Shown one piece after another: positions 20,563 to 48,200 of a stretch of 64,000 nucleotides of DNA (position 1 is the stretch's first letter; each line of letters starts with the position of its first letter). The notes below the pieces were generated by a model, which ran no database searches, was not told the DNA's origin, and saw nothing but the letters and a program-made list of their open reading frames with translations. Both the position numbers and the translations under genes were made by a program. This stretch comes from Diadema setosum (lineage: Eukaryota > Echinodermata > Echinoidea > Diadematoida > Diadematidae), in the NCBI RefSeq assembly GCF_964275005.1, contig NC_092694.1, positions 31,018,359 to 31,082,358 of the forward strand, written 5' to 3'.

Positions 20563-21358
20563 TTAAGGCCCGGTCCCACTGCACTTACGGATGCAAAGAG
20601 GATGTAAAGCGTACAAAAAATCTTGCCATCCATTGGAAAACGCTACGAATCCGCTGTGTACCCATCGCATACGTGTTTCATCCGCTCTATCCATCGAGCA
20701 TCCGTCCACTGTGATTTCATCCGCGCAAAAAGTTTTAAGCTGCTTAAAACTTTTAGAACGGATGAACTTTCCGCTGTGTACGATGTAAATCCGCGACATA
20801 CGAGCAACAAACGTTGTATGTCCGTGCGGCATCCCTTAAACGTCCGCTGCATCCTCTCTGCATCCTCTGGGCATCCTCGCAACTCACATCCGCTGCAGCT
20901 TAAAACGGAAAGAGGGAGGAAAGATATGGTACGTGGAACGTCTTTACATCGTTAATAGCACGTTAATAGAAAGGATGTAAGCGTATGCATCTCGTATATA
21001 AAGCATTTCGAAAGCATCCCCTCTACATCCGCTCTGCATCCGCTCTGCATCCACTCTGCATCCGCTTTTTCTGCTATGCGTCCGTTTCGCAATTATCTCC
21101 GGTAACCCCTTCGGAGCTGTCATCCCCTTCCATCCGCTTTCATCGGCTAGGCTTCCGATGAACATTCGTTTAGGTAACATCCCCGCTACATACTTCCCAC
21201 GTCCGTTCTATTTCCGTTCTGTTACCGCCAATTTTCGCCAATTTTGTCAATTTCTGGAGCGGATGTAAGCGGATGAAGCCATCCCCGAAATTTTGCTCGT
21301 CCGCTGTGTCCTTTCTGCATACGCTTTGTGTCCGTCGGCCAGTGGGACCGGGCCTTTA
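20563..21358. mobile_element. MITE with ends AAGGCCCGGTCCCACTG, about 796 bp
   Basis: Left AAGGCCCGGTCCCACTG and right CAGTGGGACCGGGCCTTT are inverse matches. The interior is unusually rich in GCATCC and CATCCG words (for example 21010-21065), which looks like slipped short repeats. It sits about 120 bases upstream of the start codon of the C8orf74-like gene, so it must overlap or border its promoter. Non-coding. Confidence 0.85.
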
Positions 21359-21769
21359 CAGTGCATGCAGCTAGTGGTACGTACATTCAGCTGCTGTGCT
21401 ATATGGTCGTTGAGGAGCCGGGAAATGTGCGAACGCCGGGAAAAGTGCAATAGTTCAATTTTGCAGGGAAATGTGCAAATCATTACCTCACCGATATTAT
21501 GTATAAAGATGGTTTATAAAACTCTTTATCAAAACTGCGCATGAACCTTCACCATTTGCATTTTCTGGATAAAATCCTTGACAGATTTTCACCAAACTTG
21601 GAAGGTAGCACCACTATGGTGATAAGATCTCACTTTGTAACTATGGTTGAAAAAAAAAAATATATTTTCTATAAAAAAAAAAAAATATTATAGATAGGGC
21701 TAGGTTGGTGCTATAAAGACATTGATGACTGTAGTTTGAAATTTCAAATTGAGATGATATCAGTTGCCC

Positions 21770-22195
21770 TTCAGAACGATACCTTCTAAGACGAATGGAA
21801 ATCTGTCAAGGTGTTTTTCAAACAGTCAAAATGAATTCCACAATAATTCATTTGTCATGAAAATTACACATTTTATCAACTTGATACATGCTCTCCGAAA
21901 GCGGTTAGTCATGTGCTCTTTAATTATGCTTGAAGTGATTTTTTTTTTTTTTTTTTTTTGGGGGGGGGGGGTTCCCTTTATACTTTCTTTAGGCCTATGT
22001 TGAAAAACATGACGTCATATCCTTTAGTAGTCTCATCATACAGTGGTTCCAACACAAAAACTTTAAAAATTCATAATTTTTGCATTGATTGTCTGATTTT
22101 CCTCAATCTTTCACTGATGTGTACTACTAAGGTTGCTGCTATCACTCAATCCCCACTTCTCTTTGGGTTACGGTTTCCTTTAAAATTAAAATAAC
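21770..22195. mobile_element. Partial TTAA-class fold-back MITE
   Basis: The right arm is clear (AAAAATTCATAATTTTTGCAT near 22068, then CACTCAATCC, ending TTTCCTTTAA at 22183). The left arm is eroded or missing. A poly-T/poly-G run lies inside (about 21939-21970). Confidence 0.6.
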
Positions 22196-23070
22196 TTTAC
22201 TATAGTAGACCCCTCTGATTTATCGATCATCCAAAGTGTAGTTTTCGTTACGTGTAATAAGTATTATTATTTCGTTATTGTTTATCATATAGCCTATCTA
22301 TCTAATTCTGATATTATAGGTCCCTATTTACAGACTGGTGTTAGTGAAATGATTGTGTGTATGTGTGTGTGCGTACGTGTGTTTGTTTAACTCTGTGTGT
22401 GTATACATGACATGCAAATACATGCATATAACATTTGTCATATTTCACTGGGATAACGATGATAAGCCTGGTGAAGATGAGAATTGGGTTTTTAACTTTT
22501 TGCGAGATACCAAGAAAACACTTATATAGTACAGAGCATACCATTTTAAGAGCAATTCAAAGTTTATTTGATAAAAATCGGGTTTGGAATGACTGAAACA
22601 TCCAAAAACAATGTAAAACAAAGCGATCGTAGTAAAGTGTGGGTCCCACACTTTATTATAACCCACACTTTATTAGAATCACTCTTTTTGGATATTTCAG
22701 CCATGTCAAAACCAATTTTCATCAAATAAACGTTGAATTCCTCATAGAATAATCATTACATGCTCTTTCATAACACTTATTTCGTAAGACGTTTATCATT
22801 ATCTCATCAAAAAAAAAAAAAAAAAATGTTAGAAACCTGAAATTAGGTCTCAACCAAAACTGTACGATCCCTTTAATGATTGAGTATAATTTGATCCGAA
22901 TGTTATTTATAATCTTGTATTTAGACTATATAGCATTCTTCGACTTCTGGTCAGGTTGTAATATATACTTTACACGAGAGGTAGCATATTTTTATTTCAT
23001 GACTATTGGAATGCATCTTCTCTCATCAAATGCATTTCTGTATAATTGCTTTTCAGACATTGTCAGTTAA
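22196..23070. other. No gene seen
   Basis: AT-rich DNA with a short palindrome at about 22634-22676 (repeated CACACTTTATTA words in both orientations) and a poly-A run at 22808-22826. Confidence 0.4.
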
Positions 23071-24103
23071 GCAAGTTATCTTAGCACTTTTGCTTACAGT
23101 AGGCAGATTATCTTAGCCCTTTGCTTACGCTAAGAAAAAAATCCTAGCCGTAATCCAAACCCGATTTTTGATTGGCTTACGAAAGGTACGGATAAGCAAA
23201 AGCGCTTACTTTCTGTGACGTCACGACATATTGCGCAGCTCCCGACGTAGACAAATGTTTATCTTTTGTGCGAGGAAGTGTCTATGGAGATTTGCGTGTT
23301 AAAAGGACAATATATACTCTTTTTAACACACGAAAATATATAGAATCATCACTGAATGACCCTTGATCCATCCACCGCACATTATGGCCATGGAGGGCAA
23401 GAAAAAAAAAAGCTGCAATTTCTCAGACAGAGAAAGGGTAATAATAATAGACGAATATGAAAATGAAGAGTAGCGCATACCTTGTCAAGGGGCTCTATTG
23501 GGTGGTCTCGATTTGTCGTTGTGAATTAGATTCTCAATCCTTTGAATACCGTTTCTCGAAAAACGGTATCTCTGTATCAGCTCTACGTTGTTATAAATCT
23601 GAAGCGGGTGAACGCGGGCGTTTGCGACGATTCGTCTACGATCCCTCACGTGATCGTGAATGCGGAGAAAAGCCGCCATTACAGACTCTCGATTATGCCT
23701 TATTCATAGCATCAATCGTGAACCACAATATGTGGGGCCTAACGTGAGAATGAACACTCTTTTTTTTTTTATAAGTCTTACTGCTAGAAGAAAGATAAGC
23801 AAAGTAAAAAGGTGGCTTATATTTAAGCAAGAATACTTACCTTGAGATGTTTATGGAATACCAAAGCGTGTTTAAGACAAATTTGCGGGGGGATACGCAG
23901 CTTAAGCGAATTTGCTCATTGTAAGAAAAAAGGCTCAGCAAAATTGCTCACAATCGGCAAAATTTCTTAGCAGAAATGCTTATTGGGAGATTTTGCTTAA
24001 ATTCTCTTGTAAGCAAATTTGCATACTCTTTCAGCAAGTTTGCTTGAATATAAGCAAATATGCTTAGATTTCTAGCTTAGATGCGTATTATGGAATACCG
24101 GCC
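23071..24103 (-). mobile_element. Degraded PIF/Harbinger element with transposase fragment
   Basis: A minus-strand frame at 23679-23485 starts MAAFLRIHDHVRDRRR and carries ELIQRYRFSRNGIQRIENL. This is the N-terminal signature of HARBI1-type nucleases (ELI-RYRF preceding the catalytic domain). The remaining transposase, including any DDE residues, is absent. Both flanks are rich in GCTTA and TTAGC words, and the right edge reads TATTATGGAATACCGGCCC, a phrase often seen at ends of such elements. A deleted, inactive copy. Confidence 0.65.
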
Positions 24104-24299
24104 CAGAGCGCGTGCAATGAAACATTTTGGTCAAACAGAATTGCACTGCTGAGACAGCCAGAACATGCAATTGAACCTTTCACTAAATGTCACGTGATGG
24201 GGCAATCGACCAATCGGATAGCTACATTCTAAATAGGTGTTGTATAATGATGATTATAATATGATCAGGGGTGACGAAACGTATTGTCTTCTTTATATA

Positions 24300-24640
24300 T
24301 TCTTAATGAAAAGTGCACACTGCCTGATTTTTTACTGACACAATGTAGCAGAGGTAATAACATTTCCCTGCCTTCTAGAGATTATACATCCCAATGCAAC
24401 TGATGCAATTTCATAACGAAAATGCTAGGTGTAATTACTCTTTTATTATTTACCATTCTGTGTGTAACACTACGAATTGTAGCCCTCTCATCTGGCGATG
24501 ACAAAACATGAATCTTTAAAATTCATAGCTTTTGAACGAAAGGTTTGATTTCTCTCAAACTTCACCGATGTGCTCTAATATTTCTGCATTCACTAAATAT
24601 CTGTACATATTGTTTAACAATTTTTATATTAGATGGGTAA
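24300..24640. mobile_element. Diverged right half of a TTAA-class MITE
   Basis: Shares AAAATTCATAGCTTTTGAACG, TCTCAAACTT and the CATTCACT-like block with the 9326-9876 family. The ends are not recoverable. Confidence 0.45.
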
Positions 24641-24711
24641 GTCAAAATATGATAATACCGGTAAGTGATTGGCTAAACATAGTCACGTGATGGAGGCACA
24701 TTGGTTATGTT

Positions 24712-24757
24712 CGCCCATGGGCAGAACATTTTTGTAATGTTCTGCCATGGGAAAACA
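24712..24757. repeat. Hairpin, about 15-bp arms
   Basis: CCATGGGCAGAACATT and AATGTTCTGCCATGG face each other around a short loop; one base is extra on the left side. Confidence 0.8.
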
Positions 24758-24905
24758 TTTTCACGTAAGAAATGACAAACGATTCCAAACGATTGAACGA
24801 TCATATTTTTTCACGCAATCGATAGGATAAATTTGCCTATTCCATACAATGTTAAAAAGCAGATTTGACTAACCCATACTATAACAAATGATGACTTTTG
24901 TTTTC

Positions 24906-25048
24906 GGGAACATGTACCAAACGTTCCACCCAGGGTTTGAAATGCTATTGTCGGGAGGCTATAAGTCCCGCGACTTCGTCTTGGGACTTATAACCTCCCT
25001 CAATATAGCATTTCAAACCCTTCGAGTGGAACATTCGGTATGTTCCCT
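24906..25048. repeat. Long hairpin, about 65-bp arms
   Basis: The left arm (GGAACATGTACCAAACGTT... through GGGAGGCTATAAGTCCC) pairs with the right arm (GGGACTTATAACCTCCC... through AACATTCGGTATGTTCC) around a short loop near 24976. A handful of mismatches are spread along the arms. It could be a MITE or a transcribed hairpin. Confidence 0.8.
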
Positions 25049-26003
25049 CCCCCGCCAGTCATCATCTATACAATGTGATGTTTGAATTACTGTGCTTAAA
25101 AGCACCCACTGACCACAGCCTTTTCCTCACGCCACCAATCTTTCTCACCAGCACTCCATTAACGCCAGCAAACACTCTTCGATGATCATCATCATTACAA
25201 AAGCGTTCAAATTATTCTTATAGATATCATATAAGTTAAAAAAAAATACAACGGGACCCTCCGCAATGATAACTTTGAAAATAGTGGATCGATCCAAATA
25301 CAATAGCAGGGTATGAAACTATTGTTTAACTCATTGCCCACATCTTACAAAAAAAAAAAAAAAATCCTATTTCATTCAGTGGTCAAAGAGAAATGAGAAG
25401 TTTTGTAGAGGAGTCCCCTTCCTCCAAGTTCTGTCCATTGTGTACATTTATAAATGAGCATCTATAAGCGCTAAACTTCGAAGAATCAGACCCACGACAT
25501 GCTGGACAATAGTCCACGTTTCTCTGTGACCACTTAACCAAATTAGATAGGGTTTTCTGTAAAATAGAGCTAAGATTTTATATTTTAAGACCCTGAAGAA
25601 GCATTTTTTTTTTTTTTTTTTTGGGGGGGGGACTTACTGTATAATGTAAGCACGCATTCTATCGAAGGAACCGACAAGGATTCACAAGCTTTGCTTTTAG
25701 TTGATTCCCTCATAGTGAACACTCTTATTTGTCACGGACTGAGCATGGTTCTGTCATACATTGGAATGTACGCGTTTAACATGTGTTATTTACTTGCTTT
25801 GTTTCTATGTTTCGAATGGTATTTTGATGATTAAAATGTGTTCTTGTGTGTGTGACATCTGAGGGGGGAAATAAATGCAATTCAGTACAATGGATTTTCA
25901 GAAGAAAAAAAAAACAGATATCGGATTTCATCACGAGCTTTGTTTTCATACAACTATGCTTGTGTTTAGATCTTAGAGGTAAATTCTTCAGACAACCACA
26001 AAC
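25049..26003. other. No gene seen
   Basis: AT-rich, with poly-A at 25349-25364 and a poly-T/poly-G run at 25604-25631. No exon-like frame. Confidence 0.4.
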
Positions 26004-26007
26004 TTAA

Positions 26008-27728
26008 AGGCATAATTTACCTTTTGCAGATGAAACAAAAACCCAGCATTAGTGCTTCGAAATAGTTCTAAAATGTGAGTTAGGGCTAGAAACAGCCAAC
26101 GTAAAAATATGAATCCATATAATCGATGTGAAGTGTTGTTAAATACACAAAATGTGAACAATAGTTATAATAAAAATGTTTCCAGGCTAAACCATCTACA
26201 GTTACGGTTTATTGAGAACTAGAAATGTCGCTACGGCGACTGATGCCTCCGCCATAATGCATGATTCTCCCAATAGGTGTATAGTACAATGTCTTGACAA
26301 TGTGTGATGACAGTTTCACATAACTGGCAAAATATCGAAATAACAGGTTTGTCAGAAATATCTTGAATGTTCACTTTCCACGAACTGGGTTTGCTATAAT
26401 TGTCTATTAAAGAGTGCAGGTACACATATTTGGGGAATTGAAAATTTTTACTTGACTTCTGACCGACCTTATTATAAGTTTATGCATTGAGTTTAATTTT
26501 CAAGGTATGAAAAAAGAGTGTAATTACAGTACAAAATATTTTTTTTTTCATTTAAACCTGACCTTTGACCCTTAACCTTTGACCTTTGACCTTCTGGCTA
26601 GACATTTCCAAGGAATCTCCATCAAGTAATACATGTACATATATCAAACACTTTTAAAACTAATAATGCAATCATTGCATATACTAGTATACATGTATGA
26701 GGAAAATACAGCAGTAACATTTTGAGGAGTTGACCTTGACCTTTGAACCCCTGACTATTGACCCATGACCCCTAAATTCCCTAGATAATCCCTGCCAGTC
26801 AGTACATGCATATGTACCATATTCCATGAAGATACATTGAACCATTTGGGAGAAAAGTGATATTGAAACATTTTCACCTAACCTTTGACCTTTTGACCTC
26901 TGACCTTATGACATGAAACTCTCTCTGGAGAATCCTTACGCAGTAGTACATGTCTACACTAAGTTTCAAGAAAATAACTGCTAGCATTGCATAGATATGG
27001 GGGAAATAGCAACATTTTTAGCATTTGACCTTGACCTTTTGACCTTTGACCTCTTGTCAATGTCACTAGAATCTACTCAACTAATTGTCCCATCATACAT
27101 CATCCCTGGACCAAGTTTGGTGAAAGCTGCTTTATCCAGTTTTGAGTTATCACATAAACAGATAAATTTTAGGATTTGACCTTGATCTTTGACCTTTGAC
27201 CTCTGTCCGATTTCACTGAAAAACTATTCAAGTAATTGTCCCATCATACATCATCCTCCAACAAAGTTTGGTGAAATTTGCTCCATACAGTCTTGAGTTA
27301 TCGCGTAAACGGATACAATTTCATGATTTGACCTTGACCTTTGACCTTTGACCTTTAGCCGATTTCACCCAAAATCTTATCAAATCGTTGCCCCATCATA
27401 CTTCATACTTGGACCAAGTTTGGTAAAATTCCAGTAAATATTACTCAAGTTATCGCGTAAACGAAAGCGGACGGACGTACGTACGGACGTACGTACGGAC
27501 GTACGTACGGACGTACGTACGGACGGACGGACAACCCGAAAACATAATGCCTCCGGCACCACTTCGTGGCGGAGGCATAAAAACACTGATATCTTCTTAC
27601 ATTTTAGGCTTTATTGCGAAAAATTTGTATGGTAGGATGTTTTGTGATACAACAGACCTACAAATAAGCATCAAATGTGATATCTTGAACATTTTTGAAC
27701 TCACTGCTCCCAAAGGTAAACTGGACCT
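26008..27728. mobile_element. TTAA-flanked element split by a Pearl/HINE-like element
   Basis: The outer ends AGGCATAATTTACCTTT and AAAGGTAAACTGGACCT are imperfect inverses, each bordered by TTAA (26004-26007 and 27729-27732). Removing the nested element at 26220-27579 leaves about 360 bp, a normal MITE size. Confidence 0.65.
26220..27579 (+). mobile_element. Pearl/HINE-like element, family 1 (TGACCTTTGACC core)
   Basis: Opens AGAAATGTCGCTACGGCGAC, then TGCCTCCGCC, and closes with GGCGGAGGCA, giving capped inverted ends. The core repeats TTGACCTTTGACC-type blocks about every 130-170 bp. It is followed near 27465-27533 by an ACGG/ACGT tetranucleotide tract. Tandem core units, then a tetranucleotide tract, then a hairpin-like 3' cap is the layout described for Pearl and related Helentron-associated elements. 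A second, shorter copy lies at 38054-38847. Non-coding. Confidence 0.75.
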
Positions 27729-27732
27729 TTAA

Positions 27733-28034
27733 AAGTGATTGGTCCGCATGCCTTCAAAGTATATCGTCCAATATCACGATCTCATCAACTTGCCTAGAAG
27801 ACATCATCAACACACAAGGACTGACGAATTCACATCATAATGATTAAAATTCAACTGAAGAATTTATTAACGACAACGGCGACATCCCGTCACAGCAAAA
27901 CTTTCTCCATGGCACTCTTGACCCCGAGTTTTCCATAAAGTTGTTCTTTGTGTTCTCACTTCATTTTCAAGGACTTTCACAATGTCTTGAAGTCAAACAT
28001 AAAATTCCCCCTTTTTTCAACTGAACCTATGGTT
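27733..28034. other. No feature recognised
   Basis: Ordinary AT-rich sequence between a mobile element and a candidate exon. Confidence 0.3.
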
Positions 28035-28090
28035 TACCCTCTGAACGGTATCGAGGACCCACTTTACTATGTTCACGAAGAGTTGTGCGT
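28035..28090 (-). CDS. Candidate small exon, unknown gene
   Basis: After the acceptor CATGCTTGCAG the frame NAQLFVNIVKWVLDTVQR is open to a donor-like GTAAAC. The incoming phase fits the outgoing phase of the candidate exon at 29576-29477 (AA + T gives Asn). The amphipathic, protein-like composition supports it, but the exon is short, the donor is imperfect and I do not recognise the protein. Confidence 0.3.
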
Positions 28091-28349
28091 TACTGCAAGC
28101 ATGGACCTACAACGATAGGTCCATGCTGCATGTTAAGAGGATTTTATTTACCAATTCTAGGTGGCATATGAGTTTTAGGTGATCTCCTCCCGGTATTTTG
28201 ACTGTTATTATCGTAAATGAAATTACTCTGGTACGAATTAACCTGCAATTACTACCATTCGTTAACATAATACTGGCCGTAGACGTTGAATAAATCTGGG
28301 CAGTGAAGTGCGCAGCCATTAATGTAGCCACGCAGAGACTGCGAAGTAG

Positions 28350-28517
28350 AGAGGCTTCCCCCACGTTATTGCGTCAACCATTGGCGTCAACACTGGAATC
28401 CACAAAGTAATCGTGAACTTTGATCCGACCATGGAGGTGCTAGAGAAGGAGAGGCAACTAAAGCTCTCCTTTGAAGTCATGCGCGGCACCGCCGAGAAGT
28501 TATGCGTTCAACTACAG
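28350..28517 (+). CDS. Candidate exon, unknown gene
   Basis: A plus-strand frame without stops reads VNFDPTMEVLEKERQLK, then a helical stretch ending EKLCVQLQ before a donor-like GTGTTA. VNFDP followed by a charged helix faintly recalls the N-terminal tail of dynein heavy chains, but this is not enough to name it. The start is unknown; TAG at 28347 limits the frame on the left. Confidence 0.25.
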
Positions 28518-28559
28518 GTGTTACCCATGTGCTTTGACAAAAGAGAGCATCAATAATCG

Positions 28560-29476
28560 GGACTAGCGCTCTCACATCTAGAAATATTTGCTCCTACTGC
28601 AATTCGCTCTCTCTTTCAATGTGATGGCAACAATGAATTAATGTACCTTGAATTGGAGCAGAGAATCAAAATGCAGTGTAAAACTCACAATTTTAACAGC
28701 AAATAGTTTAAAAACACGCTGGAAGACGCTTTAACGGAGTACTTTATTTGAAAGATCAAAACATCCCCTTATTAACAGATAGAAAATTAACATGCGGAAA
28801 TGTGTGCATTATAGAAAAAATAGGTTTTTATGAGGGCCTAATTTTCATTTCCTTTCGATTTGCGAATTACGAAGAAACTAGAAATACATGTTAATAATAT
28901 TGAATTCTTTCCTAAACTATTCTAAATCAATTCGAGTATTTGATTTAAAATTTTGCGGTGAAATAAAGCTTGTAATTCAACGAAAGGTGAAATGCGTTCT
29001 TCGTCTCCGAACTTCGTCTTGCAACTAGAGCGGTGTCGAGCATGACTTCAAAGCGTAATGGAATGCTAGACATCCCATTGTAACGCCTTGAACCCAAACA
29101 TGTGTTTGCATGAATTACGAAGAGTTGCCACTCCATCTCTGTAACACCTCCCTGGTTGTCACTCGCTCTCTGTGGTGTGGGACCCTCCCACCAGGTTTGG
29201 GGAGAATCTCATGGTCCGTTTTGTTTTCTCATGTAGATTTTCCCTCAAGTCTCAAAATCGTTCCTGATTGCAGAGTCTTGAAAAGACACTAAAAAGATCG
29301 AAATGAACAATAAACTTCGCTTGTCTCGTAGAATTGCGTGTCCATACAGTTGAAGAAAAAAAAAATGTTACTTTCAGCAAATGTTTGTTTACGTGTCGGT
29401 CATCAGTGCCTTGTCCATGCGCCGACATCATTCTGTTGGTCGGATTTACACAGGGTAGTTTTTGTGGAGGACGTAC
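28560..29476. other. No feature recognised
   Basis: AT-rich sequence with no convincing exon or repeat end. Confidence 0.3.
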
Positions 29477-29576
29477 TTGAAGAAGAGATCGACCTCGAAC
29501 GGGTCACACGGATTCAGCATGATCGTCAGGTCGTTCATCGGCAGCTGCAGAAACGCAAGTTGAGCCGCACCGTAGC
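29477..29576 (-). CDS. Candidate exon homologous at its start to the His-rich exon
   Basis: Acceptor ACTCCTCCTACAG, then 100 bases reading YGAAQLAFLQLPMNDL and DPFEVDLFF to a good donor (GTACGT). If that donor is ignored the frame stops 9 codons later (TAA). The last 15 intron bases and first 22 exon bases match those at 34770 with only a few changes, so the two exons share an origin by local duplication. An alternative frame (ATVRLNL...) is closed after 13 codons. The protein is not recognised. Confidence 0.45.
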
Positions 29577-30979
29577 CTGTAGGAGGAGTAGGTTTCAAGA
29601 TTCAAGATTCAAGATTCAAACTTATTTTCACTTCAATCAAATAAACAAAGAAAATTATAATACAATGCATATGCACAAGATATTTGTAATAATTGCAGAA
29701 TGTGACTTAACAAAGTACATATGAAAATGAGTAGCAGATGAAAAAAAAAACCCACAATAATATCTTTATCAATATATACATAAAGCGTATAATACAAGTT
29801 AACTAAGGATAGGGAGGGAAATAGAGGGTCCCACTAAGAAGCAAAGCTTGTACGAAAAGGGACCCTCAGAAAATACACAAGACAGCAATATAAAACAAAA
29901 TAAAACTATCCAATGTCCCCTGACATGAAATCAAGATAATTGGGAAGGGGAAAAAGAAAGAAAAAAGAAAAAAAGGGGAAAAAAAGAACTACAGCACGTG
30001 CCATCGTGGACGCAAGCAAACAGGATTCCATGATGTAAAAGCAGTGATAAAATACCTTGATTGAATACACTGCATTTTTTTTTTTTTTTTAATACGTACA
30101 TACCCGTGAAAATGCAAGAGGAGAGAATAGACACATCGGTATATACGGAACGACAATAGGACATGTAAGGAGGACTTGTGTTAAAAAAAAAAAAAAAAAA
30201 ATCATAATTGTTTGATGTTTAACCCAATCCCACCGGGCTTTTTGAGGGATTTGAAAGCACCAAGAGGGGTGGGGGCCTTTTTGCACCCCCCCCTTCAGAT
30301 CTCGGACATGGATAGCGCGATCCTCGCGAAAATTTGCACGAAGGCAGAGGCCAATGTAATCTATAAGACTGTATAATTAGAGATTTCAAATTTTAATTTA
30401 TGTATTTTATATTAATCAATTTATGCTAATTTATGCAAAAATCATATTTTGCCTATAAATAAAAAATAAAGCTCTAAGACTTCTAATTTTTAGTGAACAT
30501 ATTCTTTTCAATATCCTCAACAATAATATTGAAGCAAAAATTCGGCTTCATAATTATTTCTCATGTATTTTATTTTATGTTGAATTTCTTATGTATTTCT
30601 TTGTTTTTTACTTTTTGTTTTTGTAGTTCCATCAAAAATGGTCGCAGAAACTTTTTAAAGTATAATCAGGCTAAAATAAATCATCAGCCATTGAAAGTGA
30701 AAATATTTATTTTGTATAAATTAATTGCAAAAACAGAATTTACATTGGATTTGTACACAAGATCATGTTTTTGAGCAATTTTGGGGTTGAGAATTTTGGG
30801 TCGAGTTGTAAAATGTCACGGCTAAAGCATCACGCATTGCATAACACTCACGCAAAAGGTGGGGGGGGGGGAGGGCCGGTGGGAATAGGGTTAAGGAAAT
30901 CATGACTTGACTGAGATGGTAAAACGAACCTACCTCAATATACTTACAATATAAGAAAGAAAAGGATGACGGTGGTGGG
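29577..30979. other. Low-complexity and AT-rich spacer
   Basis: Contains TTCAAGA repeats (29596-29622), purine-rich A/G runs (29941-29985), poly-T at 30075-30090, poly-A at 30182-30200 and a poly-G run near 30862. No exon recognised. Confidence 0.4.
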
Positions 30980-33900
30980 TCAGTGCTGGTGGTGATGATC
31001 GTCATGCTCATCGTTGTGCTGACCGTGGTGGTAATCGTGGTGATGATCGTCGTGCTGACCGTGGTGGTGATCGTCGTGCTGATCGTGGTGGTGAGCGTGG
31101 CGCTCATCGTCATGCTGATTATTGTGGGGGTGATCATGGTGATGATCGTCGTGATGATCATCGTGCTGACCCTCATACTGTTTGTTGTGCTGATGGTGGT
31201 GATAATCATCATGATGGTCATCGTGCTGATCGTCATGCTGGTCGTGGTGGTAATCGTGATGATCGTGGTGGTGATCGTCGTACTGATTGTGATGATGATC
31301 ATGGTGCTCTTTGTCGTGCTGATTGTCGTGCTGATTGTGGTGATCTTGGTGATGATCGTGGTGATGATTGTGGTGGCGATCGTGGTGCTGATCGTCGTGC
31401 TGATCGTCGTGGTGATCCTCGTGCTGATGGTGGTGATCGCCGTGATAATCGTCGTGATGATCGAGGTACTGATCGTCGTGCTGATCGTAGTGCTCATCCT
31501 CGTGCTGATCGTAGTGATGATCATCGTGCTGATCGTCGTATTGATCGTCATGGTGATCATGATCGTGGTGATGATCGTCGTGCTGATCGCCGTGATGATC
31601 GTCGTGGTGCTCGTCATGATGATCGCGGTGATGATCGTCGTGCTGATGGCGGTGATGATCATCACGGTGATCGCGGTGATGATCGTGGTGATGATCCTCA
31701 CGCTGATCGTCATGATCATGGTCATGATCTTGGTGATGATCCTGGTGGTGATCGTCATGCTGATCATGGTGGTGAGCGTGGTGCTCATCGTCATGCTGAT
31801 TATTGTGGGGGTGATCATGGTGATGATCGTCGTGACGATCATCGTGCTGACCTTCATACTGTTCGTTGTGCTGATGGTGAAAATCATCATGACGGTCGTC
31901 GTGCTGATCGTCATGCTGGTCGTGGTGGTAATCGTGGTGATAGTCATCGTGATGATCGAGGTGCTGATCGCCATGTTGATCGTAGTGCTCATCCTCGTGC
32001 TGATCACCGTGCTGATCGTAGTGCTCATCCTCGTGCTGATCGTAGTGCTGATCGTCGTACTGATCGTCATGGTGATCATGATCGTGGCGATGATCGTCGT
32101 AGTGACTGTCATGATGATCGTGGTGATGATCGTCGTGCTGATCGTGGTGATCGCGGTGATCGCGGTGATGATCGTGGTGATGATCCTCGTGCTGATCGTC
32201 GTGATCATGGTGATGATCTTGGTGATGATCGTGGTGGTTAGCGTGGCGCTCATCGTCATGCTGATTATTGTGGGGGTGATCATGGTGATGATCGTCGTGA
32301 CGATCATCGTGCTGACCTTCATACTGTTCGTTGTGCTGATGGTGGTAGAAATCATCATGATGGTCATCGTGCTGATCGTCATGCTGGTCGTGGTGATCGT
32401 CGTGCTGATTGTGATGATGATCATGGTGCTCTTTGTCTTGCTGATTGTGGTGGTGATCTTGGTGATGATCGTTGTGATGATCGTGGTGATGATCATCGTG
32501 ATGATCTTGATGCTCATCCTCGTACTGATCGTGGTGATGACTGTGGTGACTGTGCTGATCGTCGTGATGATCGTAGTGATGATCCTCGTGCTGATTGTCG
32601 TAGTGATCATGGTGATAATCGTGGTGATTGCGGTGATGATCGTCGTGCTGATCGTCGTGATGATCGTGGTGATGATCATCGTGCTGATTGCGGTGATCGC
32701 GGTGATGACTGTGGTGATGATCCTCGTGGTGATGATCATTGTGATGATCGTCGTGATGATCATGGTGATGATCGTGATGATCGTCGTGATGATCATGGTG
32801 ATGATCGTGATGATCTTGATGCTCATCCTCGTGCTGATCATGGTGAGGACTGTGCTGACTGTGCTGATCGTCGTGATGATGGTAGTGATGATCCTCGTGC
32901 TGATCGTCGTAGTGATCATGGTGATGATCGTGGTGATGATCGTCGTGCTGATCGCGGTGATGATCGTTGTGATCATCGTGCTGATCGTCGTGATGATCGC
33001 GGTGATCGCGGTGATGATCGTGGTGATGATCCTCGTGGTGATCGTCATGGTGATCGTCGTGATGATCGTCGTGATGATCATCGTGATGATCTTGATGCTC
33101 ATCCTCTTGCTGATCGTGGTGAGGACTGTGCTGACTGTGCTGATCGTCGTGATGATCGTAGTGATGATCCTCGTGCTGATCGTCGTAGTGATCATGGTGA
33201 TGATCATGGTGATGATCGTGATGCTCATCGTCGTGATCGTGGTGATGATCGCCATGATGATCTTGATGCTCATCATCATGCTGATCATGGTGATGACTGT
33301 GCTGATCGTGATGATCCTCGTGGTGATGATCATTGTGATGATCGTCGTGATGATCATGGTGATGATCATCGTGATGATCTTGATGCTCATCCTCTTGCTG
33401 ATCGTGGTGAGGACTGTGCTGACTGTGCTGATCGTCGTGATGATCGTAGTGATGATCCTCGTGCTGATCGTCGTAGTGATCATGGTGATGATCATGGTGA
33501 TGATCGTGATGCTCATCGTCGTGATCGTGGTGATGATCGCCATGATGATCTTGATGCTCATCATCATGCTGATCATGGTGATGACTGTGCTGATCGTGAT
33601 GATCCTCGTGGTGATGATCATTGTGATGATCGTCGTGATGATCATGGTGATGATCATCGTGATGATCTTGATGCTCATCCTCGTGCTGATCATGGTGAGG
33701 ACTGTGCTGACTGTGCTGATCGTCGTGATGATCGTCGTGCTGATCGCGGTGATGATCGTTGTGATCATCGTGCTGATCGTCGTGATGATCGCGGTGATGA
33801 TCGTGGTGATGATCCTCGTGGTGATCGTCATGGTGATCGTCGTGATGATCATGGTGATGATCATCGTGATGATCTTGATGCTCATCCTCTTGCTGATTGT

Positions 33901-34770
33901 GGTGAGGACTGTGCTGACTGTGCTGATCGTCGTGATGATCGTAGTGATGATCCTCGTGCTGATCGTCGTAGTGATCATGGTGATGATCGTGGTGATGATC
34001 ATGGTGATGATCGTGATGCTCATCGTCGTGATCGTGGTGATGATCGCCATGATGATCTTGATGCTCATCATCATGCTGATCATGGTGATGACTGTGCTGA
34101 TCGTGCTGATGAACTTGGTGCTCATCGTTGCGCTCATTGTCATGTTGATTGTGGTCATGATCATGGTGATGATCGTGGTGGTGATCGTGGTGGTGATTGT
34201 GGCGCTGATCATCATGCTGATCTTCATTCTGTTTGTCATGCTGATGGTGATGATCATCGTGCTGATCATCATGGTGGTGATCGTGGTGATGATCGTGGTG
34301 ATGATCATGGTGGTGATCGTCGTGCTGATCGTTGTGCTGATCGTGATGATGATCATGGTGCTCTTTGTTATGCTGATTGTGGTGGTGATCTTGGTGATGA
34401 TCGTGGTGATGATTGTGATGGTGATCGTGATGCTGATCGCCATGATGATCGTTGTGATGATCGTCGTGATGATAGTGCTGATCATGGTGATGATCTAGGT
34501 GGTTATCTTCATGCTGATTGTCGTCCTGATGGTGGTGATGATCGTCATGATGATCGTCGTGCTGATCGTTGTGCTGATGGTGGTGATGATCGTCGTGCTG
34601 ATGGTGGTGACTATCGTCGTGACGATCGTCGTGCTGATCACCGTGATGATCGTGCTGATCTTGGTGATGATCGTCTTGCTGATTGTGGTGGTGATCGTTG
34701 TGCTGATCATGGTCCTGATGGTGGTGGTGATGGTGGTGGTGATGATGGGCAGGTTGAGCCTCACCATAGC
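30980..34770 (-). CDS. Candidate giant His/Asp/Gln-rich exon, about 1262 codons
   Basis: After the acceptor CTACTCCTACTTCAG, a minus-strand frame opens (N)GC-YGEAQPA, then ten His, then an unbroken run built from four-residue units such as DHHH, DQHD and DDHH to a TGA at 30982-30980. Codon by codon I saw no stop in about 1262 codons. DNA units are 12-mers (GATCGTSGTGMT) with 9-mer variants. Longer repeats measure 288, 288, 276, 207, 681 and 465 bp, all multiples of three, so the frame never shifts. Such a product would be very acidic and imidazole-rich, as in metal-binding His-rich proteins. Caution: the same DNA is also open for over 1100 codons in two other frames, because the unit lacks stop words. 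An untranslated satellite is therefore possible. No upstream exon was found. Confidence 0.4.
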
Positions 34771-35070
34771 CTGAAGTAGGAGTAGGTTTAAGAAAGAGGA
34801 TGATGGTGGTGGTGTCAGTGCTTATGGTGATGATGGTGGTGCTGATGGTGATGATGGTGGTGCTGATGGTGGCGTTTGGGCGATGGTGGTGGTGTTGATG
34901 ATGGTAGTGGTGGCAGTGGTGATGGTGATGGTGGTGATGATGGTGGTGGTTATGATGGTGGTGGTAGCAGTTGTGATGGATGATGGTGCATCTTGGTGGT
35001 GATGGTGATGTTGATGGTGGTAGTGGTGTTGATCATGATCCTGATAATGATCGTGGTGATGACGACACAA
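34771..35070. repeat. (TGG)/(TGATGG)-rich tract
   Basis: A degenerate TGGTGATGG tract continues the composition of the His-rich exon beyond its acceptor. On the minus strand 35058-34985 could encode a short His-rich stretch (CRHHHDHYQDHDQHHYHHQ), but the frame then changes character. It may be a decayed older copy of the same expansion. Confidence 0.7.
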
Positions 35071-35218: not shown

Positions 35219-36829
35219 CAAGGAAAAGTAGAAATTACGCGGTGCGTAATATATGTCCCCGCCGGAAGTAGCATTCTGTAGCAAAATGTGCAATATAGGT
35301 AAAAAATCAAGGTCAAAGGTCAAAGAAGTCAAAGGTCAAAATTCTGTGTAAAAGTTTTGAAGCCCTCACCTAGTGCCATCACATAAAGCAAACGGAATCA
35401 AAATCGGGTTAGAAATGGCGAAGGAGTAGCATTTTATAGCCAATGTACAATACAGGTCAAAAATCAAGGTCAAAGGTCAAAGAAGGCAAAGGTCAAAATT
35501 CTGTGTAAAGTTTTGAAGCCCTCACCTAGTGCCATCACATAAAGCAAACGGAATCAAAATCGGGTTAGAAACGGCGAAGGAGTAGCATTTTGTAGCCAAT
35601 GTACAATACAGGTCAAAAATCAAGGTCAAAGGTCAAAGAAGGCAAAGGTCAAAATTCTGTGTAGAAGTTTTGAAGCCCTCACCTAGTGCCATCACATAAA
35701 GAAACGGAATCGAAATCGGGTTAGAAATGGCGAAGGAGTAGCATTTTGTAGCAAATTGTACAATATAGGTCAAAAATCAAGGTCAAAGGTCAAAGAAGGC
35801 AAAGGTCAAAATTCTGTGTAGGAGTTTTGAAGCCCTCACCTAGTGCCATCACATAAAGCAAACGGAATCGAAATCGGGTTAGAAATGGCGAAGGAGTAGC
35901 ATGTTGTAGCAAAATGTACAATATAGGTCAAAAATCAAGGTCAAAGGTCAAAGAAGGCAAAGGTCAAAATTCTGTGTAGAAGTTTTGAAGCCCTCAACTA
36001 GTGCCATCACATAAAGCAAACTGAATCGAAATCGGGTTAGAAATGGCGAAGGAGTAGCATTTTGTAGCAAATTGTACAATATAGGTCAAAAATCAAGGTC
36101 AAAGGTCAAAGAAGGCAAAGGTCAAAATTCTGTGTAGGAGTTTTGAAGCCCTCACCTAGTGCCATCACATAAAGCAAACGGAATCGAAATCGGGTTAGAA
36201 ATGGCGAAGGAGTAGCATGTTGTAGCAAAATGTACAATATAGGTCAAAAATCAAGGTCAAAGGTCAAAGAAGGCAAAGGTCAAAATTCTGTGTAGAAGTT
36301 TTGAAGCCCTCAACTAGTGCCATCACATAAAGCAAACTGAATCGAAATCGGGTTAGAAATGGCGAAGGAGTAGCATTTTGTAGCAAAATGTACAATATAG
36401 GTCAAAAATCAAGGTCAAAGGTCAAAGAAGTCAAAGGTCAAAATTCTGTGTAGAAGTTTTGAAGCCCTCACCTAGTGCCATCATATAAAGCAAACGGAAT
36501 CAAAATCGGGTTAGAAATGGCGAAGGAGTAGCATTTTGTAGCAAAATGTACAATATAGGTCAAAGGTCAAGGTCAAAGGTCACGACTGAAATTCTGTGTA
36601 GAAGTTTTAAAGCTCCCATGTAGTGCTATCATATAAAGCAAACAGAATCAAAATTGGCTCATAAATGACAGAGAAGTAGCAAATTGAAAATTTTGATCAC
36701 ACACGGACGCACACACGGACGCACGGACGGACACACGGACGGACGCACGGACGGACGGACGGACACACGGACACACACACGTACGGAGCCCGTTTCATAG
36801 TCCCCTGCTCGAACTCGTTCGGCGGGGAC
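35219..36829 (+). mobile_element. Pearl/HINE-like element, family 2 (AAGGTCAAAGGTCA core), copy a
   Basis: Opens GTAGAAATTACGCGGTGCG with GTCCCCGCCGG and closes GTTCGGCGGGGAC. Between them are nine units of about 156 bp starting at the AGGAGTAGCATTTTG phrase, each with TCAAGGTCAAAGGTCAAAG. The tail near 36697-36785 is an ACGG/ACAC tetranucleotide tract. Units around 35740-36360 form a two-unit dimer (about 315 bp) present twice in succession, which records a recent duplication. Non-coding. Confidence 0.8.
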
Positions 36830-38847: not shown

Positions 38848-39746
38848 AAAAAAAAAAAAAGTCAGTGTAGTAAAGTCTTGTGTGTCAACGCAGCAGTCCC
38901 TCAAAAAACTAGAACTATCACTCAATGTGATTAATACTCCACCTAACACTGAGGAAGTTAACTCAACCAGCAATTACTTTGTATGGTGTTTATCCAAAAA
39001 AAAAAAAATAGAAACCATGGCAATTCAACATCGAATATTAAAATGTATATTGTTCACTGATAGTCACATGTGCCATAATCAAGTCAAGTGCTCAAAGCCT
39101 AAGTAAGATAAGTAAATTGGCAATTTCTATGATTTTCATTAAAAAAAAAGTTACCATGGCAACATGTTTGACAGAACAAAAGATTAAGTTTGCACAACTA
39201 CATATCACAGCTGTCACCTATGCAAAATTTCAAGTCAAATACTCAAAAGCTGAGTTAGCTGAATTCACATTATCTCATAATTTTCATTCAAAATATGCTG
39301 TTACCATGGCAGCACATTTTTCAACAATGACGAAAGATAGATTTTGTACATCTAAGTTATACAGTGATCACATGTGCCAAATTTAAAGTCAAATGCTCAA
39401 AAACTAAAAGAGTTAGATTAACCACATATTTTTAATTCAAAATATACTGTTACCATGGTAACACATTGTTCAACATTGACGAAAAATGAAGTTTGCACAA
39501 CTTCGTACTATAATGGTCACATGTGCCAAATTTGAAGTCAAATGCTCAAAGACTGAGGAAGTTAATGGAATCCGCAGTATTTTTGTAGGATTTTCAATCA
39601 AAATATGCTGTTACCATGGCAATGCATCATTCAACAATGATGAACTAGAACTATCACCCATTGTGATTAATACACCCCATCCACAACTGAGGGAACTAGC
39701 TCAACCATGATTAACTTTTTTACTTTTTAGTGAAAAAAAACAAAAA

Positions 39747-40686
39747 ACAAGGAAAAGTAGAAATTACGCGGTGCGCAATTATGCCGGAAGTAGCATTTTG
39801 TAACAAAATGTGCAATATAGGTAAAAAATCAAGGTCAAAGGTCAAAGAAGTCAAAGGTCAAAATTCTGTGTAGAAGTTTTGAAGCCCTCACCTAGTGCCA
39901 TCACTTAAAGCAAATGGAATCGAAATTGGGTTAGAAATGGCGAAGGAGTAGCATTTTGTAGCCAATGTACAATATCGGTCAAAAATCAAGGTCAAAGGTC
40001 AAAGAAGACAAAGGTCAAAATTCTGTGTAGAAGTTTTGAAGCCCTCACCTAGTGCTATCACATAAAGCAAACGGAATCGAAATCGGGTTAGAAATGGCGA
40101 AGGAGTAGCATTTTGTAGCAAAATGCACAATATAGGTCAAAAATCAAGGTAAAAGGTCAAAGAAGTCAAAGGTCAAAATTCTGTGTAGAAGTTTTGAAGC
40201 CCTCAACTAGTGCCATCATATAAAGCAAACGGAATCGAAATCGGGTTAGAAATGGCGAAGGAGTAGCATTTTGTAGCAAAATGTACAATATAGGTCAAAA
40301 ATCAAGGTCAAAGGGCAAAGAAGTCAAAGGTCAAAATTCTGTGTAGAAGTTTTGAAGCCTTCACCTAGTGCCATCACATAAAGCAAACGGAATCGAAATC
40401 GGGTTAGAAATGGCGAAGGAGTAGCATTTTGTAGCAAAATGTACAATATAGGTCAAAGGTCAAGGTCAAAGGTCACAACTGAAATTCTGTGTAGAAGTTT
40501 TAAAGCTCCCATGTAGTGCTATCATATAAAGCAAACAGAATCAAAATTGGCTCATGACAGAGAAGTAGCAAATTGAACATTTTGATCACACACGGACGCA
40601 CGCACGGACGGACGGACGGACGCACGGACACACACACGTACGGAGCCCGTTTCATAGTCCCCTGCTCGAACTCGTTCGGCGGGGAC
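39747..40686 (+). mobile_element. Pearl/HINE-like element, family 2, copy b (nested)
   Basis: Same ends as copy a (AGGAAAAGTAGAAATTACGCGG; GTTCGGCGGGGAC) with five to six core units. Two of the units have lost the intact AAGGTCAAAGGTCA word. Inserted in the family 3 array. Confidence 0.8.
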
Positions 40687-42751: not shown

Positions 42752-44520
42752 TTAAGGTAAAGGGATCTAGGTGTGAACCTCACTATTAATGAAATATGAA
42801 GTTTACGTATCTCTGTACTATAGTGGTTGCATGTGCCAAATTTCAAGCAAAATTCTCAAAGACTGAAGGAGTTCCCTGATTCCACAATATTTGTGTATCA
42901 TGTTTTTCATTCAAAATATGCTGTTACCATGGAAACGTATTGATCGACAATAACAAAATGTTAAGTTTGCACATCTACGTACCATAGTGGCCAGGTGTGC
43001 GAAATTCCAAGTTAAATGCTCAAAGAGTTAGCTAAATTCACAATATCTTTATATGCTTTTTGGTGAAAAAAAAAATGTTGTTACCATGGCAACGCATTGT
43101 TCAACACTAATGAAAATTAAGTTTGTACCTCTATATGCTATAATGGTTACATCTTTCCAGCTAAATGCTCAAAGACTGAGGGAGTTACATGAATCCACAA
43201 TATTTTTGTATGTTTTTTTAGTGAAAAGATGTTACATGGCACCACATTGTTCACCACTGATGAAAGATTAAAGTTTGCACAAACTACAGTGGTCACATGT
43301 GCAAAATTTCAAGCCAAATGCTCAAAGACTGAGGAGGTTAGCTGGATCCACAATATTTTGGTATGAATTTCATTCAAAATATGCCATTACCATGGCAACA
43401 CATTGATCAGCAATGACGAAAGATTACGAATGCACATCTACGTACTACAGTGGTCACATGTGCCAAATTTCAAGCTAAATGATCAAAGACTGAGGGAGTT
43501 ACCCAAATTCATAATATTTTTGTATGTTTTTCATTCCAAATGTTACCATGGCAACACAATGATCACCACTGACGAAAGATTATGTTTACACATCTACGTA
43601 CAACGTGGTCATGTGTGCCAAATTTCAAGATAAATACTGACAAACCAAAGGGAGTTAGCTGTATCCACAATATTTTTGTATGCTTTTTGGTGAAAAAGCT
43701 GTTGCCACGGCAACGCATTGTTCAACCTGACGAAAGATTAAGTTTGTACATCTATACTCTACAGTGGTCACGTGTGCCAAATTTCAAGTCAAATGCTCTA
43801 TGACTGAGGGAGTTAACTGAATCCACAATATTTTCGTATGATTTTCATTCAAACTATGCTGTTACCAGGGCAAAGCATTGACCAACAATGACGAAAGATT
43901 AAGTATGCACATTTACGTACCATAGTGGTCACATGTGCCAATTTTCAAGCCAAATGCTTAAAAACTGAAGGAGTTAGGTTAATCCACACATTTTTGTATG
44001 ATTGGTATAAAAAAAAAAAAAAAAAAACCTGCTGTTGCCGTGGCAACAGATTTACTAACGCACACATCAAAGGTGTTTGGCACAACTACAAATTGCATTG
44101 ATCGCATATCCCAAATTCAAACTGAATTGCTACAAAACTGAGAAAGTAGTTCGATCCACAACATTTTGTAACATTTTATGAAAATCTGCCGTTGCCATGG
44201 CAACGCATTATAAAATACTCATGCAAAAAGGTGTCTTGCACATCTGCCTGTGATAGCGGTCACACATGCCAAATTTGAAGTTAACTGCTCAAAAAATGAG
44301 AAAGTAGTTCGCTCCACAAGTTTTTTCTGAAAACATGCTGTTGCCATGGCAACGCATTACGTAATACTAACGAAAAAGGTGTTTTGGACATCTACCTTTG
44401 ATAGTGGTCACACATGCCAAATTTGGGGTCAATTGTTCAAAAAATGAGAGGAGTTCGATCCACAAGATTTTGCACCGACCGCCCGACCGACCGACCGAAG
44501 GTACCGCAAGACCAGAGATT

Positions 44521-44835: not shown

Positions 44836-45296
44836 TCAGCATTCTGTTCCAAGATTCCTGAACGAAAACTTACTGCCCTGCTCCGCGATGGGTCCATTCC
44901 TTTCAGAGTTTACCGGCTCTTCGTCGACGCTTTGGCCTCTACCAAGGTGTCTCAACGTATGATGCGTATGACGATGTCGAGACTTGGCCCTTACCCTCTG
45001 TTGCCATTTCGGTTGCCATTTCGGCTTAGAATTGGCTCCCTTCGCTATCTCCGGTTTCTTCTTTTTCTTGTCCTCGTAGTACCTGCCCTCCTTTTTCTTG
45101 TCCTCGGGGTAACTGTCAGGTTTTTTCTTTCCATTTCTATAAAAACCACGTTCTTTTGCAGTCTTTTTACGTGGCCGTGACTCTTCTCTTCCTTGATAAT
45201 TCCCAAACTCTGTATTCGAGAAGTCTGGAAGCGTGTATTCCCCTTTTCTTGCTGCTCGGGAAAAAGACAGGGGAGGAAAAAGTACAACGCCAGTAT
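44836..45296 (-). CDS. LRR gene, terminal exon: lysine-rich tail
   Basis: Acceptor ATCAGTATATCAAACAG, split Asp codon (G+AT), then 152 residues to a TGA at 44838-44836. After a hydrophobic stretch (TGVVLFPPLSF) comes a basic region. It has two similar motifs, DSYPEDKKKEG and RYYEDKKKKKP, then WQPKWQQRVRAKSRHRHTHH. The net charge is strongly positive, suggesting binding to polyanions such as glycosaminoglycans (inference). A lone Cys is the last residue. Confidence 0.55.
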
Positions 45297-48200
45297 CTGT
45301 TTGATATACTGATAATATATCCAACCTGGTATTACACAACCTGTATAATTTCTAGATATCAATATCTACATTGTATAACATACAGTTGTATCTACACCCC
45401 TAACTAATTTAATCCTGTTAAAATTCAGTACTTGGTCAACATTAAGCGTCATGTGACCTCCCCCCCCCCCCAAAAAAAAAAGAGCTCTATTTGACGTTGA
45501 AAACAAAACGCCGATGGAGAAACCTGTACTCTACCGTGATGATATGCATGGTATAGACACTACGGAGCTTTGATTGTCGCAACGCAGACATTCAGACTGG
45601 AAAAAAAACAAAATGTTTTTGTGCATGCGCAAAATGGTTGATCAAAATCGATCTCGCGACGTTTGAGTTTTCACTACTCGTTCTGGGCCATTTTTGCATT
45701 CACTCAATTTACGACGCAGAGAGCTACTAGATGCACTGACCATACGGGTCGCCGTTTTACTTTTTTATTAGTTGCGTCTTCGCGTAATCTAAAGCTACTT
45801 TGCAACACGACGCAAAGTGAATCGTCGTTTAAACGATGAAACGTCCCCGTCGCAAATCCGAAGCTTCCTACTACAGTGTATGAATGTCGTCGTAGAAAAT
45901 ATCGTGCAATTGCAACACAGACTTTTCATGGCTAGGGCGTGTAAAATGCTCTCGCTGTCGGTTTCTTAGACTAAAAGTATCTAGGCCTACATTGTAAATC
46001 ATAAATAAAAAGTGTTAAACATAGAATGAATTTTATAAGTGGAAACATTTGCAATTTTGTAAAGATTCGTCAGAAGGATATACATACATTGTATACGATT
46101 ATTGGCAAAGGATTAATTGTACTGCTGTATGCACTGTTTCGAGCGATTTATGAAATGAGAAGTTCCAAGATGGTAGAAAATTATGTTATCCCTGCCACCG
46201 TGGAATCCATAGTTCCACCTACGGCTCTCAGTGCACGTTGTTTGTTTCTTTCTTTCTTTTGTTCTTTGTTTTGGGGGATTTACGTATAAGTGATATCAGT
46301 GCATTTGATCAATTTAGGAAAGACGAGGTAGCTTATCTTCATTTTACAATGTTTTTTTTTTTCTCCTAGAGCCTAGTAACCTTCTTATCATTTCATCTCA
46401 ATTTACAGTGAAATCTCCAGTGAAATAATGCAAAATTCCTTCCTCCAGCAAGTATACATAAAAAGAAATCTCCCCGCATGAAAAGGTTGATATTGTACGT
46501 TTCTGATGCTCTGCCTTACCGCACTCTTCTTGGAAGTCTGTGAAAGAAAAAATCCTGCTCGAAAAATAATCGTCGTCGCAGCCCTTTACGGGGAGAATCA
46601 CGGACTTTTCCGAGATAAAGATTTGCCTTTCCGCAAGAATGTCGGGAATTGTGCAATCACAGGGGATGGAGTTTCCGCGTATTTCTCTGCAGAAGAGTTA
46701 GGCGGGAATCAAAGAGGGAATTTTCAAACGTCTTTGTTGTTGTTGTTTCACATACAATCTGGGAAAATAGAGCTACAGAGAACTCCCGCTATAACGAATA
46801 AGCTTCTAACGAAATTCCCGTTATAACGAAACAAAAATGCAGGTCCAAAAAATGTCGAATTCTATCTTCATACACTTTATTTCTTCGGTTATAACGAAAT
46901 TTCGATACAGCGAAAGAAAACTGATGGTCCCACGGATCAATCCTGGGAGGGGGGGGGGGGGCATTTCATGAAGCATTTTGTCAGATATTTCGTCTGACAA
47001 AATGTTAAGCTACTGAAATCCTTACATCTGGGGGGCATTTCATGAAGGAACTTGTCGGATAAAATGTCCGACAAGTCAATTATATCCGACAAGTTCAGAG
47101 AAATCAGCCAATCAGACTAAAGAATTTCTCAAAACTTGTCGGATATAATTGACTTGTCAGATATTTTATCCGACAAGTTCCTTCATGAAATGCCCCCCTG
47201 ATTGGCTGAGAGCAAATTTGTCCGACAAGTTGTCGGACAAAATGCTTCATGAAATGCACCAGGACTTCGTTATAACGGAATGCTATAGTATAAAAGAAGA
47301 AGTCCTCCCCAAAATAATCTACATGTCACTCAATGTGTTAAATACCCCAACCTTAAAATGAGGGAGTTAGCTCAACCAGGACTTATTTTGTATGCTTTTT
47401 ATGTTACCATGGCAATGCATTGTTTAACATTGAATAAATGTATTCTCCTCACTGTTAAGTTTCGTTTCGGCAAAGAGTGGCAAAGAGTGTTAGTCACATG
47501 TGCCATATCTCAAGTTAAGTTCTCAAAAACTGAGTAAGATAAATATATGGGCAATTTCTATGATTTTCATTAAAAAAATGCTCTTCCTATGGCAACACAA
47601 TGTTTGACATAAAGAAAAAATAAAGTTTGCTATATATATAAGCTATATATCATAGCCCTGACATGTACCAACTATCAAGCCAAATGCTCAAAGCTGAGGG
47701 AGTTAGATGATTTTACAATATCATTGTGTGATTTTCATTCAATATAAGCTATTATCATGGCAACACATATTTCAACAATGCTTAAAGATTGTAAATTTTG
47801 CACATTTAGGTAATATAGCGGTAACATGTGCCAAATTTGAAGCCAAATGCTCAATAACTAAGAGCAGTGTAGCTGAATCCAATTTTTGTATTATTTTATT
47901 CAAAATAGTGCTGTTACCATGGCAACACATTGTTGTACAATTACGAAAGATCTATGAAGTTTGCATGTCTACCATAGCCGTCACATGTGCCAAATTTCAA
48001 GCCAAATGCTCAAGTTTGAGAGAGTTAGCTGAATCCAGTTCTTTTTTTTTAAGATTTATCATTCAAAACATGCTGTTACCATGGCAACGCATTGTTCAAC
48101 AAAGACGAAAGACTAACTTTTCACATTAACAGTGTACCATAGCGGTCATATGTGCCAAATTTCAAACTAAATGCTTAAAGACTGAGGAGTTAGCCTTATC

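Follow-up and report, generated by a model that had tools for sequence, protein, structure and literature searches.

In the antifreeze glycoprotein (AFGP) genes of Antarctic notothenioid fishes, an array expanded at an intron-exon junction in a register of three bases, and the exonic variable number tandem repeats (VNTRs) of mammals, such as those of mucins and filaggrin, keep an open frame through repeats whose lengths are multiples of three. A 2025 review calls the absence of frameshifts in exonic VNTR expansions striking, and describes formal tests against a neutral expectation as lacking (PMC12776774). Here we describe a tandem array of the sea urchin Diadema setosum whose minus strand would encode mostly aspartate, histidine and glutamine (the D/H/Q array), analysed within a stretch of 64,000 nucleotides (C10:31018359-31082358; the window). 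On balance it is probably a noncoding array of intron type that expanded after the neighbouring intron-exon junction had been duplicated.

The D/H/Q array shares with the AFGP genes an expansion at an intron-exon junction in multiples of three. However, AFGPs are expressed and functional, whereas the D/H/Q array is known from DNA alone, its 12-bp unit gives D, H and Q, and its parent last exon is still present. The VNTRs of mammals lie in known exons, whereas this array is a candidate exon whose homologous short arrays look intronic. With intronic minisatellites it has in common the direct tandem arrangement, the intron-type position, the block duplications and a short array at the same site in all three copies of the gene, but it is about 10 times longer than the arrays of its paralogues (3763 versus 266-393 bp) and shows no phase breaks. 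Histidine-rich proteins have been described in sea urchins, among them FGFRL1, for which a zinc-binding, His-rich tail is reported (PMC2806250), and the SpTransformer proteins, which have a His-rich region (PMC5491942). Of the last 12 residues of the urchin FGFRL1 motif, 6 are His. These genes are unrelated to the D/H/Q array, and the likeness is one of composition.

The array and its open frame

The array was recognised by Tandem Repeats Finder (TRF) over 30989-34746 as direct tandem units, with 319.9 copies at period 12 and 160 copies at period 24. The array and its end are as follows.

30983-34747, minus strand: D/H/Q array of 12- and 24-bp units, mostly GAT CAT/CAG CAC CAC/GAC on the minus strand
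30980-30982, minus strand: TGA closing the D/H/Q frame, within sequence resembling an intron end (AGCACTGAC.CCACCACC)

The first-pass annotation of this DNA had proposed a giant coding exon born from repeat expansion, and its description of the array held up. On the minus strand, 1262 codons without a stop run from 34768 to 30983, from an acceptor-like site to the TGA, and the predicted product is composed mainly of H (44.5%), D (28.4%) and Q (10.1%) as had been claimed, with little K (0.4%) and R (2.0%). The claim that all measured repeat lengths are multiples of three was borne out by the spacing of identical 15-mers (all 6060 pairs) and of near-identical blocks (all 53 pairs, including those of 207, 276, 288, 465 and 681 bp). 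Near-identical block duplications reach 407 bp, and a 22-mer of the array unit has 7 genomic occurrences, every one within the array. An origin by repeat expansion was likewise supported. From stop to stop the open reading frame spans 30980-35032 (1350 aa), its upstream end passing the candidate acceptor into an adjoining intron-type array.

The open frame was rejected as proof of coding, because four of the six frames are nearly stop-free at the array. On the plus strand, T stands at one base in three, at 1180 of 1254 sites (94% of units), and this single phase is held without break across 3763 bp (30983-34745), which exceeds what chance would give. Where T stands, no stop is possible in the plus-strand NTN and NNT frames or in the minus-strand ANN frame, and these three are almost stop-free because the T phase leaves them almost unable to form stops. 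Within 30980-34770, three of the five other frames have one stop each, and the remaining two have 446 and 127. In the D/H/Q frame (NAN) TAA or TAG is possible, and zero is present.

Another long open frame created by a repeat was seen at locus L031 (1136-2174), where an array of 24-bp units with 97% matches and no indel is open in five frames for 273-406 codons.

A probable duplication of the intron-exon junction

The sequences around the array were compared with the two paralogous copies of the gene (L015 and L030). The features that enter this comparison are listed from the lower to the higher coordinate.

29446-29576, minus strand: conserved last exon, phase 1, encoding YGAAQLAFLQLPMNDLTIMLNPCDPFEVDLFFKYVLHKNYPV and a stop after a good acceptor; 3 copies found in the genome
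29594-30949, minus strand: stretch of about 1.36 kb, absent here from both paralogues, ending in TTGAATCTTGAATCTTGAA
30950-30979, minus strand: second pyrimidine tract, CCCACCACCGTCATCCTTTTCTTTCTTATA, resembling the intron end of the paralogues
34748-34770, minus strand: 23-bp copy of the start of the last exon (phase 1), sharing the frame of the D/H/Q array
34771-34796, minus strand: duplicated pyrimidine tract and AG acceptor
34797-35062, minus strand: short TGG/TGA array preceding the duplicated acceptor, with 3 phase breaks in 266 bp

The candidate acceptor at 34770 (TTTCTTAAACCTACTCCTACTTCAG/GC) took rank 98 when 3361 AG sites of the minus strand were ordered by a crude score derived from generic frequencies. 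Judged by homology, however, it is a duplicate of the conserved last-exon acceptor at 29577/29576, and the TGA would lie in former intron. The flank of the array matched the intron-exon junction of a paralogue at 88% over 50 bp, and the other end of the array matched the paralogue intron end at 86% over 42 bp. The stretch of about 1.36 kb, which carries a TTGAATC-repeat tail and parts the D/H/Q array from the true acceptor, is suspected to be a mobile element; no second copy was found within the 144 kb searched.

In L015 and L030, TGG/TGA arrays of 390 and 393 bp immediately precede the last exon's pyrimidine tract and acceptor, and comparison of the copies showed that in all three a short TGG/TGA array (CAC/CAT on the minus strand) abuts an acceptor of this exon. 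Such an array would be the starting state. Homology at both ends suggests that in the window the whole junction (array, pyrimidine tract, acceptor and first 23 bp of the exon) was then duplicated in tandem. The block structure suggests that the array between the two acceptors may have grown to 3.8 kb by in-register slippage and unequal exchange, its unit becoming GATCATCACCAC-like during expansion. The giant open frame would then reflect the in-register spread of a unit with 3-bp periodicity in which TAA or TAG seldom arises, and a protein would not be required. Since a paralogue, too, has a short array that is open and shares the frame of its last exon, over 186 codons in total, an open frame at this locus needs no coding role.

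Frame keeping in the array and in control arrays

Phase breaks were determined with a three-state phase model, for which three switch penalties were tried. The D/H/Q array had 0 breaks at all three penalties with 74 T-site changes, whereas the three homologous short arrays had 3, 5 and 5 breaks with 6, 15 and 9 changes respectively (13 breaks and 30 changes in 1049 bp). Some changes of the D/H/Q array are duplicates of others; the independent ones numbered 17-40 by clustering and 15-46 by block linking. Against the three homologous arrays, Fisher p was 0.012 (15 changes), 0.0071 (17), 0.00095 (26), 6.9e-05 (40) and 2.6e-05 (46), and against the first two alone it ranged from 0.016 to 0.00051 for 17 to 40 changes.

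Control arrays were taken from 264 kb with TRF (periods divisible by 3 and no longer than 30, length at least 60 bp), and those that overlapped a longer array, had a one-letter consensus or had a best-phase conservation below 0.75 were dropped. The L030 array was added by hand to the ten arrays so obtained, four of which had no break, with 0-3 changes each. Compared to all 11 controls (18 breaks, 39 changes), p was 0.0075 to 5.7e-06, and a rate model gave a probability of zero breaks of 0.045 to 2.5e-06. The frame in the D/H/Q array was kept better than in noncoding repeats, the controls being few and short.

Indels whose length is not a multiple of three were counted as a second measure. Paralogous flanking DNA had 51 of them per 435 substitutions (36 away from homopolymers), whereas the 11 array block pairs had 0 at 99 substitutions (p 4.9e-05 versus the flanks; 8.2e-04 without homopolymer sites). 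No such indel was found either in three small noncoding arrays, at 15023-15146 (18 substitutions), at 39276-39554 (22) and at L031 (16). The p-values given here are based on the phase model and on pairwise paralogue alignments. A gapped alignment of the array to its 12-bp unit, in which 82 of 96 gap runs were not multiples of three, was disregarded, since such an alignment can divide a 3-bp shift between a one-base and a two-base gap, and the phase model detects no break. Counts of such indels in gapped alignments of other arrays may be inflated by this artefact too.

The host gene and its tandem copies

A composite of three minus-strand exons was used as the query for the host protein. It matched P0001, 'uncharacterized protein [Diadema setosum]', which covered 81% of the query at 100% identity; no other of the 86 candidates reached E<=0.001. 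On the minus strand P0001 occupies 55817-44836, ending about 10 kb before the D/H/Q array; it contains neither the candidate D/H/Q exon nor the last exon.

48981-55817, minus strand: span of further P0001 matches (55817-55758, 51057-50968 and 49061-48981)
46520-46686, minus strand: P0001 exon further upstream, which carries a CDC motif (phase 2 to 1)
44874-45251, minus strand: lysine/arginine-rich (K/R-rich) exon, with phase 1 on either side and donor GGGCA/GTAAGT in all three copies

P0001 reads through the GTAAGT donor after 44874 to a TGA at 44836-44838. This end of the NCBI protein (window 44839-45251) is SKFSFRNLGTEC followed by the stop and was also seen at L034 and L035, and both the read-through end, SKFSFR(N/D)LGTEC and stop, and the donor are kept in all three gene copies. 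The D/H/Q array sits between the phase-1 donor at 44874 and the last exon at 29576-29446, whose phase 1 is compatible with that donor; donor and last exon are present together in each of the three copies. A last intron from 44874 to 29576 may be proposed from these phases, although P0001 is without the last exon and the read-through end is conserved.

The last exon had three genome matches, all within 121 kb on C10, and the K/R-rich exon also had three, each with the same donor. Between the window and the L015 copy, 2 of the 131 bases of the last exon differed, with flanking segments aligning at about 82-89%, and 8 of 131 differed between the window and the third copy. The three gene copies form a tandem cluster at C10:31047807-31192862, in which the K/R-rich exon is 53-54% and the last exon 90-95% identical. 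For the exon at 46686-46520, a C-terminal domain of leucine-rich repeat type, suggested by its CDC motif, was considered and is not claimed (no Pfam match and one chance-level PDB match).

Alternative explanations

That the D/H/Q array is a noncoding, intron-type tandem array expanded after the junction duplication is the reading we consider probable. It accounts for the anatomy of the locus, for the homologous arrays and for the absence of the array from the NCBI protein, but several observations weigh against it. It leaves the kept frame unexplained, with zero breaks at 15-46 independent T-site changes versus 13 at 30 in the homologous arrays. TAA and TAG were absent from the D/H/Q frame where context-matched expectations were 5.0, 2.6 or 1.0 (p 0.005, 0.064 and 0.33, depending on the linking threshold). 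Nor is the drift of the 23-bp exon copy strong support, even if it is read as decay: 4 of 23 bases differ from the true exon of the window, and the argument is weak because the working exon of the third gene copy differs from that of the window equally, at 4 of its first 23 bases. The kept frame would instead be expected if the acceptor at 34770 were spliced to the donor at 44874 and the array served as an alternative last exon under frame selection, adding a disordered tail of about 1262 D/H/Q residues, probably metal-binding as judged from composition. We regard this as a serious though less likely rival. The phases match, joining 44874 to 34770 keeps the frame with no stop until 30980, and both the phase breaks (0 in 3763 bp versus 13 in 1049 bp) and the indels (0 per 99 versus 51 per 435 substitutions) agree with it. 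In the 11 block pairs, 26 of 99 differences were synonymous, an excess over 1/6, which approximates the expectation for the measured transition/transversion ratio (p 0.015), but the excess was gone at an expectation of 0.204 (p 0.17), and with 73 of 99 changes nonsynonymous the residues are hardly conserved. Codon positions 1, 2 and 3 held 36, 14 and 49 changes versus 38, 27 and 34 expected from flanking-DNA rates (p 0.0017); this and the synonymous count are confounded, since founder variation lies at positions 1 and 3 and the shuffling of older unit variants appears as substitution. The stop-codon and codon-position tests point weakly in the same direction as frame keeping. In line with a noncoding array, poly(A)-like hexamers numbered 3 in the 600 nt past the TGA versus 2.4 in shuffles. 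Against the alternative exon stand also the small noncoding arrays that are free of frameshifting indels, the position of its stop in ex-intron, and the NCBI protein, which ends at 44836 with a read-through end kept in all three copies. What stood of the first-pass coding exon is a frame that runs from the acceptor into the repeat and is kept better than in noncoding controls. Its status as an exon is doubtful because the acceptor appears duplicated, the TGA lies in intron-homologous sequence, the sister arrays break phase and the NCBI protein ends 10 kb earlier.

It is very improbable, in our view, that the phase is kept for a reason at the DNA or RNA level, either as a phased GATC-rich binding array or by conversion that removes frameshifting units. 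Two minus-strand and one plus-strand pieces of 150 nt folded somewhat better than dinucleotide shuffles, although the z-scores were weak (-1.7, -1.9 and -2.0), and the 22-mer of the unit is confined to the array; the homogeneous 24-bp array of L031 is also without indels, though at 16 substitutions only, 6 of them distinct. Against this reading, conversion should remove substitutions as readily as indels. A scenario that links noncoding origin and selection is quite unlikely but worth stating: the duplicated junction would have given a runaway intronic repeat both an acceptor and a frame, which are now selected, so that a 1262-residue tail is becoming an alternative last exon while two sister copies show the noncoding start. 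If translated, the array would represent a coding sequence derived almost entirely from a tandem repeat situated at an intron-exon junction, and a second natural experiment of the AFGP kind, with the before-state preserved in two sister copies on the same chromosome. If it is not, as under the noncoding reading that we favour, it is a warning that an open frame of 1262 codons with repeat lengths solely in multiples of three can arise without coding. The comparison of phase breaks with independent substitutions, with homologous arrays as the control, provides one simple formal test of frame keeping.

Searches and neighbouring features

The product of the array matched no Pfam family. A protein search with it found no homologue among 7971 scored candidates, a result that is uninformative in that the genome search with the same query omitted its own locus; that search gave two weak repeat matches, to L031 (24-bp unit) and L032 (a DRHSDRHSDR-type repeat). 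The window contained no Rfam family at the gathering score and no tRNA, and minus-strand translations of 34799-64000 and 20999-30980 (stops as X) had no Pfam match at E<=0.01. By a crude rule, no signal-peptide first exon with a phase-1 donor was found upstream of 34770. Literature on histidine-rich and sea urchin topics turned up no paper on the array, no search having been aimed at the array itself.

Arrays with units of about 150-158 bp were observed at 3928-6730, 35267-36582, 39789-40475 and 42815-44000, two 158-bp arrays among them having a common unit. Near the start of the window, an exon at 1645-2112 on the minus strand encodes an SH3 domain (Pfam SH3_1, 4.8e-16) whose sequence is close to those of Src and Fyn; a Src-family kinase probably has its first coding exon here.
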